A stretch of DNA of 64,000 nucleotides from Meridianimaribacter flavus. GTDB lineage: Bacteria > Bacteroidota > Bacteroidia > Flavobacteriales > Flavobacteriaceae. Below, one piece after another: positions 3,129 through 52,013 of this stretch (within the stretch, counting starts at the first letter, position 1; each line of letters opens with the position of its first letter). The translations under genes and the position numbers were made by a program. Below the pieces are notes generated by a model. The model was not told where the DNA came from and ran no database searches. It saw nothing but the letters and a program-made list of their open reading frames with translations. The stretch spans positions 5,001-69,000 of the forward strand of contig NZ_SOQZ01000003.1 in assembly GCF_004366715.1 (NCBI RefSeq), read 5' to 3'.

Positions 3129-6100
3129 TTATTGATTTGAAGTGAATTCTGAAGGAGTAGACTTATAAACGTCTTTAAAGCATTTTATAAAATAGGAAGG
3201 TGTATTGAAACCGACTTGATATGCGATTTCAGAAATGTTTAAGTCAGAATCTTTTAAAAGATTAACCGCTAGTTTTAAGCGTTCGTTACGGATAAACTCG
3301 GTTGTTGAAAATCCTGTTATAGCTTTTAGTTTTCTGTGTAGTTGCATTCTACTCATAGCCATTTTTTTAGATAAATCATTAGAGTTAAATGACGAGTCGG
3401 TAATATAATCGTTGAGTATAGTTTTTAGTTTAGTTAAAAATTGCTGATCAACAGGAGTTGTACTTATACTGCTGAGTTCAAAATGAGCGCTATATCTTGA
3501 TTGTAGTTTTTGCCTTATTTCTATAAGTTTTTCAACACGTATTTTAAGTTTGTTACTATTAAAAGGCTTTACAATATAATCGTCTGCTCCAGTTTCTAAT
3601 CCTTTTATTTCATTTTCGTCACCACTTTTTGCTGTGAGTAAAATTATAGGAATATGACTTGTTTTTTCGTCTTTTTTTAAAGTATTACAAAGTTCAATAC
3701 CATCAATTTTAGGCATCATTATATCGCTAATGATAATATCAGGAATGTATTTTATGGCTTTTTTAATGCCACTTTCACCATTAGGAGCTTCTTTAATGTC
3801 ATAGTCATTTTTAAAAATTGAACTTATAAATTCTCTTATATCTTTATCGTCTTCAACTATTAATAAAATAGATTTGTCCTTAGATTTATTAATAGCTTGT
3901 TCTTCAGAAGTTACTGGAGTTTCTAAGACTGTATCAAGCTCATCATTAACAACTGTTTTAGTGTCTTCGTTTATTTCAGAAATATTATAAAAAGAACGCT
4001 CAATAGGTAAAGTTACAGTAAATTGAATATCATCTGTATTCATAGTGTGCGCTACAATATTTCCATGTGATAAAATAGCTAGTTCTTTCACTAACGAAAG
4101 TCCAATGCCTACACCATCAGCATTTTTATTGTTTTGGTAATACCTTTGAAATAGTTTGCTTAACTCTTTACTAGAAATGGTATTTCCGTTATTAATAATT
4201 GTGATAATAATTTGACCGTTTTTTTCAATTGCAGCAAAGTGAATTTGACCGTTTTCTGGAGCATATTTTACTGCATTAGAAAGTAAATTTGTGGTGATTT
4301 TTTCGATAACATCTTTATCAAACCAAGCTTCATGAATTGATTGAATTTTATGTGAAAAATGTATGTTTTTGTCTTTAGCTTTATACTCAAAAGAAGCTGC
4401 TATTTGTTTGAGGAATGCTGTAATATTTCCTTTAGAAACAGAGAGTTTTAAGTTTCCTGATTCTAACTTAGATAGGTCTAGTAATTGGTTGACTAGATTC
4501 AATAATCGTTTAGAGTTGTTTTGAACTAAAGAGAGTTCTTTCTTATCATCTTCTGTTAGGTTAGACTTAGATAATTGTTTTTCAATTGGACCAGAAATAA
4601 GTGTTAATGGTGTTCGAAACTCATGAGATATATTGGTGTAAATCCTGGTTTTAAATTCATCTAATTTTTTTAAGCGTTCAGTTTCATTATGCTCAAATTG
4701 TAATTGCATTTTCATGTGCCAACGCCATTTAAAATACCTGTATAACAAATACATGCTAATCAAAAAAAGTAGTGCATAACAAACAATAGCAAGCTTGCTT
4801 AAATACCAAGGTTGTAGTATTGTGAAAGTAAATGTAGCAGGTGTAGTATTCCATACACCATCATAGTTACTTGACATTACTTTAAATGTATAATCGTTAG
4901 GAGGTAGGTTGGTATAATGTGCTGAATTATTGTTTTCTGAGTTAATCCAACTTTCATCATGATTTACGAGTTGATATTTATAAAGGTTACGTTCAGGTTG
5001 TGAGAAATGTAAACTAGAAAATGTAAAGGTTACAGTATTTTGATTGAATTTAAAGGTTGAGTTTTGTTTTAAAGGATAACCTTCAGTAAAAATCTCAAAC
5101 TTAGAAATAATGGTTTTTGGTTTAATTGGGTTAAATGTAAGTTGGTTAGGGTTAAACCAGTTGAGACCTTCAAGGCCCCCAAAATATAAGTTTTCGTTTT
5201 CGTCTTTATAGTAAGCTCCAGTGTTAAATTCCAAAGCCTGTAAACCATCATAGTTGCTGTAGTTTTCAAAAATAGTATCCTTAATGTTTAATTTACTTAT
5301 ACCATAATTAGTGCTCAACCATAAGTTGTTTTCTTTATCTGGTAGTATACCGTAAATCACATTGTTTGGTAAACCATCAACTTTGGTGTAAACATCTAAT
5401 GATCGGTTTATAGTATTATACTTTTTTAAACCTTTACCATTTGTGCCAATCCATAAGATTTCATTGTCATAATGCAATGATTTTATTTTGTCATTTAAGG
5501 ATTTGATATTGGTTATTTCATTAGTCTTTAAATTTAAATTATACAACCCTTTATCATCAGTACCAATCCAAAGTGTGTGCTCATTGCCTTTTATAGCTGT
5601 TTTAATGTCATTTGTTGATAGGGTAGAATTATCAGTATTGAATTGCTTAACAATACCTTTATCTATATCGAATAAAATAATACCATTACGTTCGGTACAC
5701 AACCAACTTTGATTATCGTTCTCTTTTATAATTCTCCAGATTGTAAGATTTGAAATTTCAGGGAATGAAATGTAATCTCCAGAGTCAGTTCTGATATTTA
5801 AACCAAATCCTTGGTGACCTATCCATAATTTATTCTTGTTATAGAGCAAACTTATTATTCTGTCGCTAGCAATTGAAGAATTGTTAACGGTATATGTTTT
5901 ATACTCATTATTATTAAAGTTGATATGTGTAAGCCCTTTACCAGATGTACCTATCCATAAATTATTATTTACATCAGTACTTATGCTTCTAACCACATCT
6001 ACATTTACATTTTTAGGGACTTGATTATTTGTGAGCACATTAAATTTTATGAGGTGAGCATCATAATAGCTCGCTCCAGTTCCGTCAGAACCTAGCCAAA

Positions 6101-47774: not shown

Positions 47775-48326
47775 TTATAACCAATTTTCTTCTAAACATT
47801 CAGCCATAGCATTTCTGGCTCTATGGATAATTACCCAAAGGTTAGACGCAGTAATGTTTAATTCATTACAAATAGTTTCAGTATCTAATCCTTCTATGGT
47901 TTTCATTTTAAAAACATTAGCTTGTTTTTCAGGAAGTTTACCTAAACAGTTGTAAATAGCATCGCCTAACTCCTCGTTTTCAAGTTTGTCTTCCGCTGTT
48001 TTATCAAATGGATCCGAAACACGTTCTTCAAGCCAATCGCCTTCAGCTTCATCGGAGTTGTAAGACATACGCACTTCAGCTTGTCCTTTTTTAGAGTTTA
48101 TCTTGCGGTAATGGTCAATGATTTTTCGCTTTAAAATAGCAATAAGCCATGTGCGTTCGTTGGCATCGCCTTTAAAGTTTTTCATTGATTTTAATGCGGC
48201 AAAAAAAGTGTCTTGAACCAAATCCTTAGCCATTTCACGGTCGTTTACACGCGATATGGTATAGTTAAAAAGATAATCGGAATAGTTGTCAATCCAATTA
48301 TCAGGATTTAGTGTATGGTTAGGCAT
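47775..48326 (-). CDS. ECF-like sigma-70 family RNA polymerase sigma factor
   Basis: A 183-residue sigma factor with region 2 (DYLFNYTISRVNDREMAKDLVQDTF, about 15-39, in two conserved blocks; RTWLIAILKRKIIDHYRK, about 58-75) and region 4 (LPEKQANVFKMKTIEGLDTETI, about 133-154). There is no region 3 or 1.1, so it is a group IV member. It is the first gene of a two-gene operon with the small Cys protein. Target promoters are unknown. Confidence 0.92.
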   Translation of the reverse strand: MPNHTLNPDNWIDNYSDYLFNYTISRVNDREMAKDLVQDTFFAALKSMKNFKGDANERTWLIAILKRKIIDHYRKINSKKGQAEVRMSYNSDEAEGDWLEERVSDPFDKTAEDKLENEELGDAIYNCLGKLPEKQANVFKMKTIEGLDTETICNELNITASNLWVIIHRARNAMAECLEENWL

Positions 48327-48787: not shown

Positions 48788-49540
48788 TTAAGATTGGTAG
48801 TTGAATACTGACATAAACTGTGTGAACTTTGTTTCATTGAATGTTTCAAAACCAGCAGTTTTAAAAGCTTCTTCCCAATGATTTTTTGAAAAGAAATGTG
48901 TGAACCCAATAGAAAATGCCAAAAAGTTTGGAAAATCCCGTAAGTGTTCTACCATAATAACTTTTCCGTTAGGTTTGCAAACTCTGTGACACTCTTTTAG
49001 CAATTGAACTTTCCCATCAAAAGAACGAATTTCATGAGCTGCTGAAAGTAGAAAAACATAATCAACCGAATCGGTTTTAAGCGGCATGTGATTGGTTTTT
49101 ATTTGTAACGTGTTAGGGTAGGTTAGGCTTACTTTTCTAGCTCTAACAATTGCTGGCTCTGTATGTTGTTCAGCATTATAAAAATCGAATACTTGAAGTT
49201 TTGATTTAGGGAGATTTTTTTTCAGAATATAACTGGTTTCATCAAAACCTGCATTGATATTTAACACTAGTTTTTCTTCTGAATCTTTAAGTTGTAAAGG
49301 CTTTAGCCAATCAAAATTATAGTAACCTGAAAAATCATATACGTAAGCCGAAACTATCAGTGGCATCAATAATCCATATAAAAACACACCTATGATTACC
49401 CATAATAGTGATTGTGACCATTGAAAGTATAATTGGCTTGATATTATAATTAATAGTGTTGTAATTCCAACAACATAAAAATGCCTGTTAAAGCTTAAAA
49501 TGTTAAGGACGCCTTGAAATTTTCTTCGTTTTGTTTCCAT
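48788..49540 (-). CDS. Membrane-anchored class I methyltransferase
   Basis: A 250-residue protein. Two N-terminal transmembrane helices (about 19-36 and 44-66) are followed by a cytoplasmic SAM-methyltransferase fold: VLNINAGFDETSYIL (motif I is degenerate at the usual GxGxG), a late acidic-to-hydrophobic strand VDYVFLLSAAHEIRSF (about 160-175) and ECHRVCKPNGKVIMVEHLRD (about 183-202). The modified molecule may be a lipid or quinone, because the enzyme sits on the membrane. The gene overlaps the DUF2071 gene by 46 bases. Confidence 0.75.
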   Translation of the reverse strand: METKRRKFQGVLNILSFNRHFYVVGITTLLIIISSQLYFQWSQSLLWVIIGVFLYGLLMPLIVSAYVYDFSGYYNFDWLKPLQLKDSEEKLVLNINAGFDETSYILKKNLPKSKLQVFDFYNAEQHTEPAIVRARKVSLTYPNTLQIKTNHMPLKTDSVDYVFLLSAAHEIRSFDGKVQLLKECHRVCKPNGKVIMVEHLRDFPNFLAFSIGFTHFFSKNHWEEAFKTAGFETFNETKFTQFMSVFNYQS

Positions 49541-50271
49541 AATTCTTTTCTTCCTTTTTTCCAGTAATATGGTATTTGTTCAATGATAAATGCGTTTGCT
49601 AGTTTGTGGTTTTTTAATTTTAGAGTATTGATAAATTCGAAGTTATGATCATTGACTTTGAGTGGTTTTGGCTTCCAGTTTTGTCTTACACCTTCAATGA
49701 TTAAGACTTCTTTTTTGTCTTCGTTATAAGTGAATGTAAAGGGTAGTGGTCCAGCAAATCGTCGCGCTTCTTTCCAGTTTAAAAATGGTGAATATTTAGG
49801 TAAACTAACCGCTTCATTATCTTTACTATAACTGATTTTAAAATTTGATTTTTTAGAGTTGATTTCAATTTTGCTATTGTCACTTGTTCTTGTAATATCA
49901 GTAGTTGTATAGTTGTAATGGGTGAATATGTTGCCCATAAAAGTCATTTTTTTCTTATCGGTTTCTGATTTTATAATGTACAATCCACGTAAGCGTTTTC
50001 CTTGGTTTGTAGTGTAGCGAACAAAAATGCGGTAACCTATTAAGAAGAAATCATTGCCTAAAAACTTTGGAAATCCTTTAGGTCGTAAATTTTTGGTTTG
50101 CACCATAGCGACAGCTACAAAAGCCCATCTATCTTGCAATGTATCTAACTGTAAACAATCAGGAATTAATGGCTCCAACTGTTCTTTAGGTACAGCAAAT
50201 GTCAATACAACCGAGCTTTCAAAAAAGGCTTCTACACCAAAAGGGTGATTTTTAAGATTTGATAAGTTCAT
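49495..50271 (-). CDS. DUF2071 (YqjF-like) family protein
   Basis: A 258-residue protein. The family signature is visible: VLTFAVPKEQLEPLIPDCLQLDTLQDRWAF (about 22-51, two stretches), KFLGNDFFLIGYRIFVRY (about 69-86) and GLYIIKSETD (about 96-105). It resembles acetoacetate-decarboxylase-like beta barrels, with function unproven. It overlaps its upstream DoxX gene by 20 bases and the downstream methyltransferase by 46 bases, a sign of strong co-translation. Confidence 0.85.
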   Translation of the reverse strand: MNLSNLKNHPFGVEAFFESSVVLTFAVPKEQLEPLIPDCLQLDTLQDRWAFVAVAMVQTKNLRPKGFPKFLGNDFFLIGYRIFVRYTTNQGKRLRGLYIIKSETDKKKMTFMGNIFTHYNYTTTDITRTSDNSKIEINSKKSNFKISYSKDNEAVSLPKYSPFLNWKEARRFAGPLPFTFTYNEDKKEVLIIEGVRQNWKPKPLKVNDHNFEFINTLKLKNHKLANAFIIEQIPYYWKKGRKELWKQNEENFKASLTF

Positions 50272-50632
50272 GATGTGTTTTATTAAAGTGAAATTGATTG
50301 TAGTAAATAATAATGATTAAGATACAGGCAAAAAAAGCATTGAGTTTTCCCCAAAGTAATAGTTCTGGAGTGATGACGAATTCTAAAATGTTCATACTTG
50401 CAATGATTACAATTTGTACAACAGCATTCAATTTTGAGTATTTATTGGATAGAATCCAAAATGCCATAGCAATTTCTAAACATCCTATCGTTAAAATTAG
50501 AGGTCTAGAATAGTCTCCACTCAAAATGTTTGCAACAATTTGTTCATGTCTAGGTACTAGGTTTAAAACCTTACAAAACAGTCCGTTTATAAACCAGATA
50601 CCTGCTAAAGCTATATTTATAATTTTGTACAT
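50252..50632 (-). CDS. DoxX-like membrane protein
   Basis: A 126-residue protein with four hydrophobic segments (ALAGIWFINGLF, LILTIGCLEIAMAFWIL, VVQIVIIASMNILEF and AFFACILIIIIYY). The pattern fits the DoxX-like family, often found with redox or quinone functions. It is the first gene after the GbsR palindrome, 14 bases before its ATG. Confidence 0.8.
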   Translation of the reverse strand: MYKIINIALAGIWFINGLFCKVLNLVPRHEQIVANILSGDYSRPLILTIGCLEIAMAFWILSNKYSKLNAVVQIVIIASMNILEFVITPELLLWGKLNAFFACILIIIIYYNQFHFNKTHHELIKS

Positions 50633-50645
50633 TTTAATATTTTAA

Positions 50646-50669
50646 AACTTTCAGTAATCTTTGAAAGTA
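50646..50669. promoter_or_regulatory. GbsR-type operator upstream of the DoxX operon
   Basis: AACTTTCA (50646-50653), 8 bases, TGAAAGTA (50662-50669) is a near-perfect palindrome in the 52-base gap between the gbsR stop and the DoxX ATG. The same 8-8-8 palindrome is in front of gbsR. I see no exact -7 element below it, so the DoxX promoter itself is not defined. Confidence 0.65.
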
Positions 50670-50683
50670 TGTTTTAAATTTTT

Positions 50684-51187
50684 TTATTTAAAGAGTTTAA
50701 GTAACGACTTTGTTAACCAATTTTGTTGTTGGTTTACCACTTTGTTTATCATAGTGTCCATTGTGTCGGTTAGTTCATGTAATGCTTTGGTTTGTTTTAT
50801 AAGTTCTTTAGTTTTTTCAGTACCATCATCTTTTATAGATGATACATCTTTTAGTATCTTAACGACTGGTTTAATTTCACGTCTGCTACGTTCTTTAGCG
50901 ACAATTCGTGCTAACTCTTGTACGTCTTTTTCGGTAGTGAAATATTCTTTACGCTCACCAGGAATAATTTCTTTGGTTACAATTCCCCAATCCATTAATT
51001 GTCTTAAATTCATACTAGTGTTGCCTCTAGAAATCTTAAGTTCGTCCATGATGTCTTCCATAGACAAGGGTTTTGTGGAAATAAAAAGCAATGCTTGAAT
51101 TTGAGCCATAGCTTTATTTATTCCCCAGAGCGAACCCAAACTTCCCCAAGTGCTAATAAATTTTTCTTTTGCTTCTTGATATTCCAT
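50684..51187 (-). CDS. GbsR/MarR family transcriptional regulator
   Basis: A 167-residue winged-helix regulator. The GbsR pattern is visible: FISTWGSLGSLWGINKAMAQI (about 10-30, in two blocks), AQIQALLFISTKPLSMEDIM (about 28-47) and ELKISRGNTSMNLRQLMDWG (about 49-68, recognition helix). A coiled C terminus with many Lys residues follows. It precedes the DoxX operon and has an identical operator in front of its own start, so it is probably autoregulated and acts as a repressor of the operon. The ligand is unknown. Confidence 0.9.
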   Translation of the reverse strand: MEYQEAKEKFISTWGSLGSLWGINKAMAQIQALLFISTKPLSMEDIMDELKISRGNTSMNLRQLMDWGIVTKEIIPGERKEYFTTEKDVQELARIVAKERSRREIKPVVKILKDVSSIKDDGTEKTKELIKQTKALHELTDTMDTMINKVVNQQQNWLTKSLLKLFK

Positions 51188-51191
51188 AGAG

Positions 51192-51235
51192 CAAATATAT
51201 AAAATATTTTAAACTTTCAAAAATTATTGAAAGTT
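51192..51235 (-). promoter_or_regulatory. Promoter and operator of gbsR
   Basis: On the minus strand TTTG (51221-51218), 18 bases, TATATTTG (51199-51192) fits the full consensus, ending four bases before the ATG. The palindrome AACTTTCA (51212-51219), 8 bases, TGAAAGTT (51228-51235) surrounds the -33 TTTG, so a bound dimer would block polymerase. The right arm overlaps the stop codon of the preceding gene by two bases. Confidence 0.75.
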
Positions 51236-52013
51236 AATTTATTTGCAAATGAATATGATCATCATGTCTTACGGCTTGACAACCATGAAATCGGATTTTT
51301 GAATAATTCTGCAACTGCAATTGTTGCTTCAAATATGGCTCAATGAAGATTTTTTGAGTATTGGAGTTGTTGACCAACTCTAACACTAGAGCTCTAGTGT
51401 TTTTTTCATCTAGAGTTAATTCATTTAATTTTCCAAAGGATAAGTATTTTGGAAAGTCGTATTGCCAATAGCCTTCATATTTGCATTTTTCTGATGTTTG
51501 ATTTGTTGAATTGACATAAACTCCATATCCCGAAATAGAAGGTTTTTTATTGGTAGGCATTCCTTCATTATCTAAATATTGAAATGAAATATCAATTTTT
51601 TTACCGTCATTATGGCTTAAATGTGGTAGCAACGGAAATCCATTTAAAAAAGGAAAGTTAGCATCTAGATAAGTAATTGAAATGTTGCTGGGTTTTAAAT
51701 CTGCAGCTGAAGTTATTAACAGATTACTTAATTCAGGAGTTGCATAATTTCTAAAAAGTAAAGGGTATGCTATATTTCTTGGTTTAAGTTCTGAACTGAA
51801 AATAGGTAACTTTTCACGACCAAATATTTTAGCAATTGGCGGAACAACTAAAAGGTTAAAGACTAAATATAAAAGTGGAAATGTATAGCGCTTTTTAGTT
51901 TTTATCTTTTTTGAAACAAAAACAGATAAGAGCCATACAATTCCACCAACTTGTGTAATTACAGTTAGAAATAGAATAACGCAGATATGTCCTAAAAGCT
52001 TTAAAAACTTCAT
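51234..52013 (-). CDS. Membrane protein with LAS-peptidase-like motif
   Basis: A 259-residue protein with two hydrophobic helices (about 6-32 and 44-62) and a periplasmic domain. LSHNDGKKIDISF (about 132-144, His and Asp) and HDDHIHLQIN at the very end (HxH) match the His-Asp-His-x-His metal arrangement of LAS-type peptidoglycan peptidases such as MepA. It may cut peptidoglycan cross-links, or it may be a relative without activity. It lies 26 bases after the M3 peptidase gene on the same strand and upstream of gbsR. Confidence 0.6.
   Translation of the reverse strand: MKFLKLLGHICVILFLTVITQVGGIVWLLSVFVSKKIKTKKRYTFPLLYLVFNLLVVPPIAKIFGREKLPIFSSELKPRNIAYPLLFRNYATPELSNLLITSAADLKPSNISITYLDANFPFLNGFPLLPHLSHNDGKKIDISFQYLDNEGMPTNKKPSISGYGVYVNSTNQTSEKCKYEGYWQYDFPKYLSFGKLNELTLDEKNTRALVLELVNNSNTQKIFIEPYLKQQLQLQNYSKIRFHGCQAVRHDDHIHLQIN

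Follow-up and report, generated by a model that had tools for sequence, protein, structure and literature searches.

Two conserved palindromes as predicted operators of a GbsR-type regulator ahead of an exchangeable operon in Meridianimaribacter flavus and its relatives

In Meridianimaribacter flavus (Flavobacteriaceae; assembly GCF_004366715.1, contig NZ_SOQZ01000003.1), a gene for a GbsR-type regulator of the MarR family lies between two similar palindromes, one over its own promoter (O1) and one between its stop codon and the start of a doxX gene (O2), which raises the question of whether both are operators of this regulator and what they would control. Within the window, that is, the whole stretch of 64,000 nucleotides analysed (contig positions 5,001 to 69,000), the pattern AACTTTCA-N8-TGAAAGT is matched with zero mismatches at 50646-50668 and 51212-51234. 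A preliminary description of this DNA had placed one palindrome ahead of gbsR, wrapped around a -33 TTTG, and one ahead of the DoxX operon, with no further copy in the window. Both copies are present, O1 overlaps a -33-like TTTG on the minus strand (51218-51221), and the two are the sole exact matches in the 64 kb window and also in the 3,217,707-base genome (14 contigs). At up to two mismatches, the genome-wide counts are 12+13 for the motif and 27+25 for a reversed control pattern, while eleven matches with up to three mismatches in the window compare with 8.9 expected, so that only the exact and near-exact copies exceed chance. A chance origin of the palindromes is ruled out by the genome scan together with the family-wide association with gbsR given below.

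On the minus strand, the order of features is dcp-like peptidase, 259-aa ORF, O1, gbsR, O2, doxX, DUF2071, methyltransferase, small membrane protein, ECF sigma factor and anti-sigma-like gene (Table 1); the flanking-gene names dcp, purE and gcvP are presumptive assignments from their sequences. The ORFs between gbsR and the sigma gene, here termed the payload, were grouped across loci into 49 clusters (c0-c48), and one representative each of twenty-three of these was scanned. The start of payload gene 4 was picked from its likeness to cluster c10, and 19/20 members of the cluster of payload gene 3, the methyltransferase, have two hydrophobic stretches. The 259-aa ORF (51234-52013) has no Pfam or NCBIfam match, and its stop codon reaches into the edge of O1. 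A homolog of this ORF occurs up to 1.2 kb upstream of gbsR in just 33/141 loci, and the left side of the locus thus varies too.

Table 1. Positions of the features of the gbsR locus in the window
Feature	Position	Strand	Basis
gbsR, GbsR-type MarR-family regulator, 167 aa	50684..51187	-	ORF list, Pfam MarR_2, 1KU9 by profile and fold
O1, palindrome over the gbsR promoter, AACTTTCA-N8-TGAAAGTT, predicted operator	51212..51235	.	Sequence, motif scan, conservation
-33-like TTTG inside O1	51218..51221	-	Sequence
-7 box TATATTTG of gbsR	51192..51199	-	Sequence; 18 bp beyond TTTG, 4 nt ahead of ATG
O2, second palindrome, between gbsR stop and doxX start, without -7 box	50646..50669	.	Sequence, conservation
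A/T linker, gbsR stop codon to O2	50670..50686	-	Resembles TAAAAAAATTTAAA in many relatives
Payload gene 1, DoxX_3 family membrane protein	50252..50632	-	ORF list, Pfam
Payload gene 2, DUF2071	49495..50271	-	ORF list, Pfam
Payload gene 3, SAM-dependent methyltransferase	48788..49540	-	ORF list, Pfam
Payload gene 4, membrane protein, about 134 aa	48373..48777	-	ORF list; no Pfam match
ECF sigma factor, bounding the variable slot on the right, outside the payload	47775..48326	-	Domain scans; downstream conservation

The gbsR product incorporates a winged helix-turn-helix at about residues 25-90 and matches Pfam MarR_2. A profile of eighteen orthologs has 1KU9 (MJ223) as its best PDB match (E 1.1e-22, positions 3-152), and 1ku9_A is likewise the best Foldseek match of the predicted model (mean pLDDT 79, weakest at residues 141-167, with the C-terminal part at lower confidence), with a VIA-align Z of 15.3 and an rmsd of 1.4 over 90 residues of the N-terminal domain. 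As MJ223 ranks first by both profile and fold, and also serves as the template for GbsR models (PMC6207618), the regulator can be classed as GbsR-type, with the 1KU9-like winged helix-turn-helix and helical dimerisation part of that group. The window protein contains no cysteine and no aromatic residue at 88-112, an interval approximated by the authors from quoted OpuAR positions; F, W and Y are absent from this interval in 139/144 orthologs, and cysteine from 140/144 orthologs altogether. This makes a choline-type cage or a thiol switch unlikely. Membership of the osmostress GbsR/OpuAR/OpcR group is not indicated, with no aromatic cage found near the linker and no gbsAB or opu transporter genes among the neighbours (window and representatives of 23/49 slot clusters, c0-c14 included). 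Similarly, no cytochrome bd genes, as would be expected for the CydE/CioR group, were found in the window operon or the 23/49 slot clusters scanned, and the CudC model (NF047500) gave 48.4 bits against a cut-off of 218.

Using an author-chosen cut-off of E below 1e-30, gbsR orthologs were found in 59/299 genomes of the family. The exact 22-mer ACTTTCA-N8-TGAAAGT occurs in 49/59 genomes with an ortholog, being missing from ten, as against 11/240 genomes without one (Fisher p 2.6e-35), while the reversed control pattern occurs in 2/59 and 10/240, respectively. A second search contributed 80 named loci, and 145 loci were analysed overall, with the window counted twice (as itself and as L011). L011 is included in the 145 loci of the core-mismatch count and left out of most other counts, six loci without gbsR (L155-L160) are left out of the locus counts, and L161-L174 are left out of the analysis; other duplicates exist among the 145 loci, in which 128 distinct gbsR sequences with O1 can be distinguished. 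The 12-base core of O1 (CTTTCA...TGAAAG) has no mismatch in 124/144 loci, at most one in 139/144 and two in 5/144. For O2 the core is intact in 102/145 loci, within one mismatch in 134/145 and has two to four mismatches in 11/145. None of the random windows from the same loci (725 of 100 bp and 725 of 175 bp) reached one mismatch to the core. Furthermore, losses of the outer C/G coincide in O1 and O2 (p 1.1e-4 across 128 loci, kinship being ignored), and both sites are kept in L147 and L148, where GbsR is 38 % identical. The genome and its relatives were scanned for the motif as the preliminary description had advised, and its refuting condition, palindromes that are not kept alongside gbsR in relatives, was not borne out.

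The preliminary description had also regarded the regulon as self-contained. This agrees with the genome scan, which yielded no second target, and with the location of 78/82 exact copies in the 49 genomes at the gbsR locus. Fifteen exact copies lie elsewhere, four in ortholog genomes and eleven in others; ten of the fourteen examined (the G083 copy was left out) fall within ORFs of 100 aa or more. Those in ortholog genomes comprise two terminator-like hairpins and two copies inside ORFs. The L158 and L159 copies look like terminators behind a 529-aa gene, which is presumably release-factor-like, the L249 copy is also terminator-like, and the L254 copy is an intergenic hairpin. Additional regulon members were thus rejected, as all fourteen copies are ORF-internal, terminator-like or hairpins. 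At the locus itself, the two palindromes look like predicted GbsR binding sites.

The DoxX module serves as a control for the alternative that the palindromes belong to some other regulator and merely adjoin gbsR. A doxX gene is present in 24/299 genomes, near gbsR in twelve and without gbsR in the other twelve. All twelve genomes with both genes have a palindrome (at most two mismatches) between them; in ten the site has up to one mismatch and lies no more than 400 bp from doxX, and in three other genes separate O2 from doxX. In the twelve loci without gbsR, doxX is followed in every case by DUF2071 and methyltransferase genes. No palindrome was found in the upstream stretch in 11/12 of these genomes, and the 1-mismatch match in the twelfth falls inside a coding ORF. 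Given that the DoxX module without gbsR has no such site, the palindrome would belong to gbsR and not to the DoxX operon. Against the alternative of another regulator, the presence or absence of the palindromes follows gbsR genome by genome, also in other families and other surroundings, and the DoxX module without gbsR has none; this alternative is therefore considered very improbable. The fourth gene of the module was also present in both of the gbsR-less loci examined for it (L219 and L220), one of which lies directly behind genes presumed to resemble those of pyrimidine degradation.

Despite their common half-sites, O1 and O2 are not equivalent. An exact TAnnTTTG box at 20-58 bases from the start of the core is found at 135/143 O1 sites (7.0 in shuffles) and at 0/144 O2 sites (1.7 in shuffles). 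Upstream of O2 no -7 box exceeds chance, and in none of 144 loci does the combination TTG-N16-24-TAnnTTTG occur between the gbsR interior and a point 60 bp beyond O2. Two further promoter forms, the sigma-54-like pair and TATAAT, are respectively absent from the 144 O2 sites and at shuffle level in them. The same applies to two forms taken from PMC9723704, with TAnnTTGY (SM5-type) absent from all 144 sites and CGT at shuffle level. TTG occupies the -33 place in 117/144 O1 sites, and its counterpart is CTG in 118/145 O2 sites. While the O1 spacer is near-symmetric (ATAATTAT), that of O2 is polar (ATaTTTTC), conserved and non-palindromic, with C replacing the first T of the TTG of O1; this conserved spacer is unexplained by plain dimer binding. 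O2 begins 15-25 nt past the gbsR stop in 129/145 loci, the linker being TAAAAAAATTTAAA-like in most but not all of 25 sampled sequences, and a conserved, short A/T-rich gap (median 17 nt in 140 loci) separates its end from the next ATG. The identical architecture ascribed to the two copies in the preliminary description thus extends to the half-sites, but not to the -7 box, which the DoxX-side copy lacks, nor to the spacer, which is conserved differently.

At O1, the -7 box of gbsR ends 4 nt before the ATG and transcription starts 4-5 nt after such boxes (PMC6847099), so that the gbsR mRNA is probably leaderless or has a very short leader. Considering that the -33 element of Flavobacterium promoters is generally weak (PMC6847099), covering this element may matter less than the general position of O1. 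Autorepression through O1 on the gbsR promoter is plausible on the basis of this arrangement. For O2, the preliminary description had pictured a promoter operator like O1. It could lie over a second promoter, serving the payload, whose -7 box departs from the consensus, and GbsR would then occlude two promoters. This would be in keeping with the shared half-sites and the preserved A/T-rich gap to the start codon, and not all Flavobacterium promoters fit the consensus (PMC9723704). Furthermore, an exact -7 box within 130 bp is found in just 2/12 DoxX modules of gbsR-less genomes, and with 10/12 likewise lacking it, one O2 without an exact box is weak evidence. The complete absence of TAnnTTTG, TAnnTTGY and the sigma-54-like pair across 144 O2 sites, CGT and TATAAT at no more than shuffle level, and the change of TTG to CTG nevertheless make a second promoter unlikely.

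The presence of a -7 box at O1 and its absence at O2 point instead to occlusion at the former and a roadblock at the latter. A dimer of the GbsR-type MarR repressor would bind both sites. At O1 it would overlie the upstream section of the gbsR promoter and shut off the unit of gbsR and payload, which would form one transcript. At O2, 566 bp downstream and promoter-free, bound repressor would most likely block the elongating polymerase, and the genes behind this roadblock would thereby be controlled more tightly than gbsR. An inducer, which would not be sensed by cysteine and is judged not to be choline-like, would release the repressor, while the genes behind O2 would form a payload open to exchange, comprising membrane proteins as well as lipid-modifying or redox enzymes. 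The probability of this reading as a whole, with O1 occlusion and an O2 roadblock by an inducer-released GbsR ahead of an exchangeable payload, is estimated at about 0.68.

Two other roles for O2 have to be weighed against a roadblock. GbsR bound to O1 and O2 might loop the DNA, with O2 assisting as an accessory site in the control of the O1 promoter. Such a loop would suit the presence of two strong sites of the same type, 562-678 bp from each other, and of an A/T linker adjoining O2, but the spacing groups near 566, 573, 585 and 656 bp share no single helical phase. As the spacing is not phase-locked, looping is a second choice and is regarded as quite unlikely. Alternatively, O2 could act in the RNA as a hairpin affecting processing or stability, or as a weak terminator, given that it lies inside the proposed transcript and its sequence can pair. 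However, the single changes in the O2 core comprise twenty-five unpaired and three G-T, and the double changes two paired, one G-T and seven unpaired. These changes mostly break pairing and thus speak for a DNA site, and O1, which lies ahead of the start, has these half-sites as well. A function as RNA therefore retains very little probability.

The proposed roadblock would act on a highly variable set of genes. The scanned clusters include TIGR01777 oxidoreductases, CMAS-like methyltransferases, fatty-acid desaturases, and DCC1-like, DUF2071, DoxX, UbiE-like and PEMT-like proteins. Several others are small proteins that contain hydrophobic stretches but match nothing in Pfam, while c12 and c14, also without a Pfam match, are presumed from inspection to be SRPBCC-like. 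Among 99 complete slots with distinct gbsR, 815-4165 nt in length, 59 gene orders could be distinguished, forty of them single occurrences, although these orders rest on automatic ORF calls with fragments counted as families. The DoxX four-gene operon, taken in the preliminary description as the defining target, is just one of these 59 orders. At the borders, the peptidase gene was found upstream in 118/140 loci and the sigma gene downstream in 96 of the 111 loci whose downstream sequence exceeds 3.5 kb. In close relatives homology returns just before the sigma gene, and in the middle 90 % of 90 loci the interval from sigma to anti-sigma gene measures 554-594 nt; the gap before gbsR also varies. 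On a gbsR tree of 125 tips, the label of the first payload gene changes 62 times (82.7 in shuffles, minimum 77). Presence is near-random for c2 (27 changes; 28.4 shuffled) and c4 (20; 20.8), less so for c5 (12; 15.1), c0 (21; 25.0) and c9 (8; 9.6), while tree signal is kept for c1 (20; 31.2), c3 (19; 27.1) and c8 (11; 16.7), all these counts being rough as the tree is weakly resolved (49/122 inner branches open).

Close relatives about 90-93 % identical in their flanks can carry unrelated payloads. For example, G293 and G090 belong to the same genus and share 91.8 % identity as far as 580 nt beyond the gbsR start, and 90.6 % from 30 nt ahead of the sigma gene onward; the former has doxX-DUF2071-methyltransferase-c10 and the latter c2-c3. 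L218 and L097 share blocks of 89.7-93.4 % identity and differ in payload (c2-c1 and c4-c3). The Algibacter strains A. pectinivorans DSM 25730 (L060) and A. amylolyticus DSM 29199 (L091), with only the left flank compared, are 95.3 % identical up to +555, beyond which both have a c2-family gene first, in unalignable versions, followed by c1 or c5-c6-c7-c10. L073 and L076 have c8 and c1 in common (92-94 %), and differ by c2, c0-c0 and c11. In the compared relative pairs, O2 belongs to the left block that both members share. Judged by GbsR, the closest named relative is Hanstruepera flava (L041; 98 %), which has c2-c1 in place of the window operon; H. neustonica (GbsR 95 %) does have that operon. 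Fourfold-site identity of gbsR and its flanks is mostly saturated (six near-duplicates left out); in the Hanstruepera trio it is 0.68-0.77 for gbsR and 0.37-0.46 for the flanks, which fits exchange or constraint alike.

Inside some payloads, O2-like palindromes occur after c9 at +844 to +850 from the gbsR start (L016, L087, L088, L113, L115 and L153, some of these rows being near-duplicates) and after c1 at +1818 (L024), as if copied along with the payload. Decayed pieces are also observed, including a c1 remnant with many stops in G050 and fragments of c3. TIGR01777 proteins score above cut-off in 79/80 genomes scanned, forty of which lack gbsR; 16/17 genomes with one at the gbsR locus have a second copy elsewhere, and G167 has the locus copy only. 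As regards a phage-defence reading, PADLOC matched one of ten proteins, a CMAS-like methyltransferase that was related to a Mads component, as a general likeness among methyltransferases would lead one to expect. The payload presumably also bears a resemblance to light and singlet-oxygen regulons (ChrR, LitR). On this point PMC5241685, in the text available, supports only the induction of a CFA synthase gene by blue light. The common theme of the named payload families would be membrane or lipid remodelling, and the swapping of these genes suggests that local conditions or other organisms exert selection.

Beyond the family, forty further loci, a non-random choice made by the author from homology matches, were compared for the 10-base core TTTCA-N8-TGAAA within one mismatch, a level reached by 7/870 (80 bp) and 10/870 (120 bp) background windows. 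Both sites were found in 17/23 loci from other families of the same class, in 3/3 additional loci of the same family and in 1/3 well-scoring loci of genomes labelled as other classes; across these twenty-nine loci, O1 is present in 27 and both sites in 21. Among eleven lower-scoring homologs from other classes, one has O1 and none has O2. Slots outside the family also contain c0, c1, c2, c8, c9, c11, c12 and c14. In L179 and L190, which are outside the family, genes of this pool lie behind gbsR, yet no recognisable O2 was found. The palindrome pair is absent from L202-L212, which are GbsR homologs from other classes, and a short ORF downstream of some of them is presumably YraN-like. It is tentatively proposed, as a possibility short of a favoured view, that O1-gbsR-O2 forms a control socket across this class of Bacteroidota, behind which cassettes are recombined and so come under one signal. 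The pool (small membrane proteins, fatty-acid desaturases, cyclopropane-synthase-like and other methyltransferases, DUF2071, DoxX, DCC and SRPBCC-like proteins) would be swapped between close relatives fast enough to resemble an arms race or a membrane niche trait, with O2-like sites sometimes copied along. Replacement-type flexible genomic islands also have fixed flanks and exchanged contents, as at the gbsR slot. What sets the slot apart from these islands is its content, a small operon with genes for small membrane proteins and lipid enzymes, and its position after a conserved regulator with a putative operator pair.

Among known systems, the closest parallels are with GbsR and OpcR of Bacillus subtilis (PMC7396694), GbsR-type MarR repressors with A/T-rich inverted-repeat operators at gbsAB, opuB and opuC. 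A roadblock is reported there for GbsR and -35 occlusion for OpcR, and O2 is placed like the former and O1 like the -35 cover, so that the mechanism proposed here would combine both modes (PMC7396694). The two systems differ in that the half-sites of B. subtilis GbsR are 4 bp apart, as against 8 bp between TTTCA and TGAAA here, and in that its targets are osmoprotection genes with a choline-type inducer (PMC7396694). CioR of Chromobacterium violaceum and CydE of Alishewanella are GbsR-type regulators encoded within the operon they repress, as is proposed here for gbsR, and CydE similarly lacks an aromatic cage; their target is cytochrome bd in place of a variable payload (PMC11837568, PMC6207618). 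For Bacteroidetes GbsR homologs, which probably include the subgroup studied here, Ronzheimer et al. (2018, PMC6207618) assigned no function, as their neighbourhoods gave no consistent picture; variation of the payload may explain this inconsistency. The suggestion that such a regulator-operator pair had not been described for this family holds in part, with GbsR-type operators described in Bacillus (PMC7396694), although they differ, and neither operators nor a slot found for the Bacteroidetes homologs in the text available of PMC6207618. No other paper describing an operator for this subgroup was found in the mainly open-access literature, and the words GbsR and MarR are absent from the main text of the F. 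psychrophilum start-site paper (PMC9723704).

The constant part of this locus can thus be identified as the regulator and two putative operators, one on its own promoter and one ahead of a changing payload. This gives a short DNA fragment for binding tests, and an operon as the readout for an inducer. It also delimits a set of about fifteen exchanged gene families, which should share one purpose.
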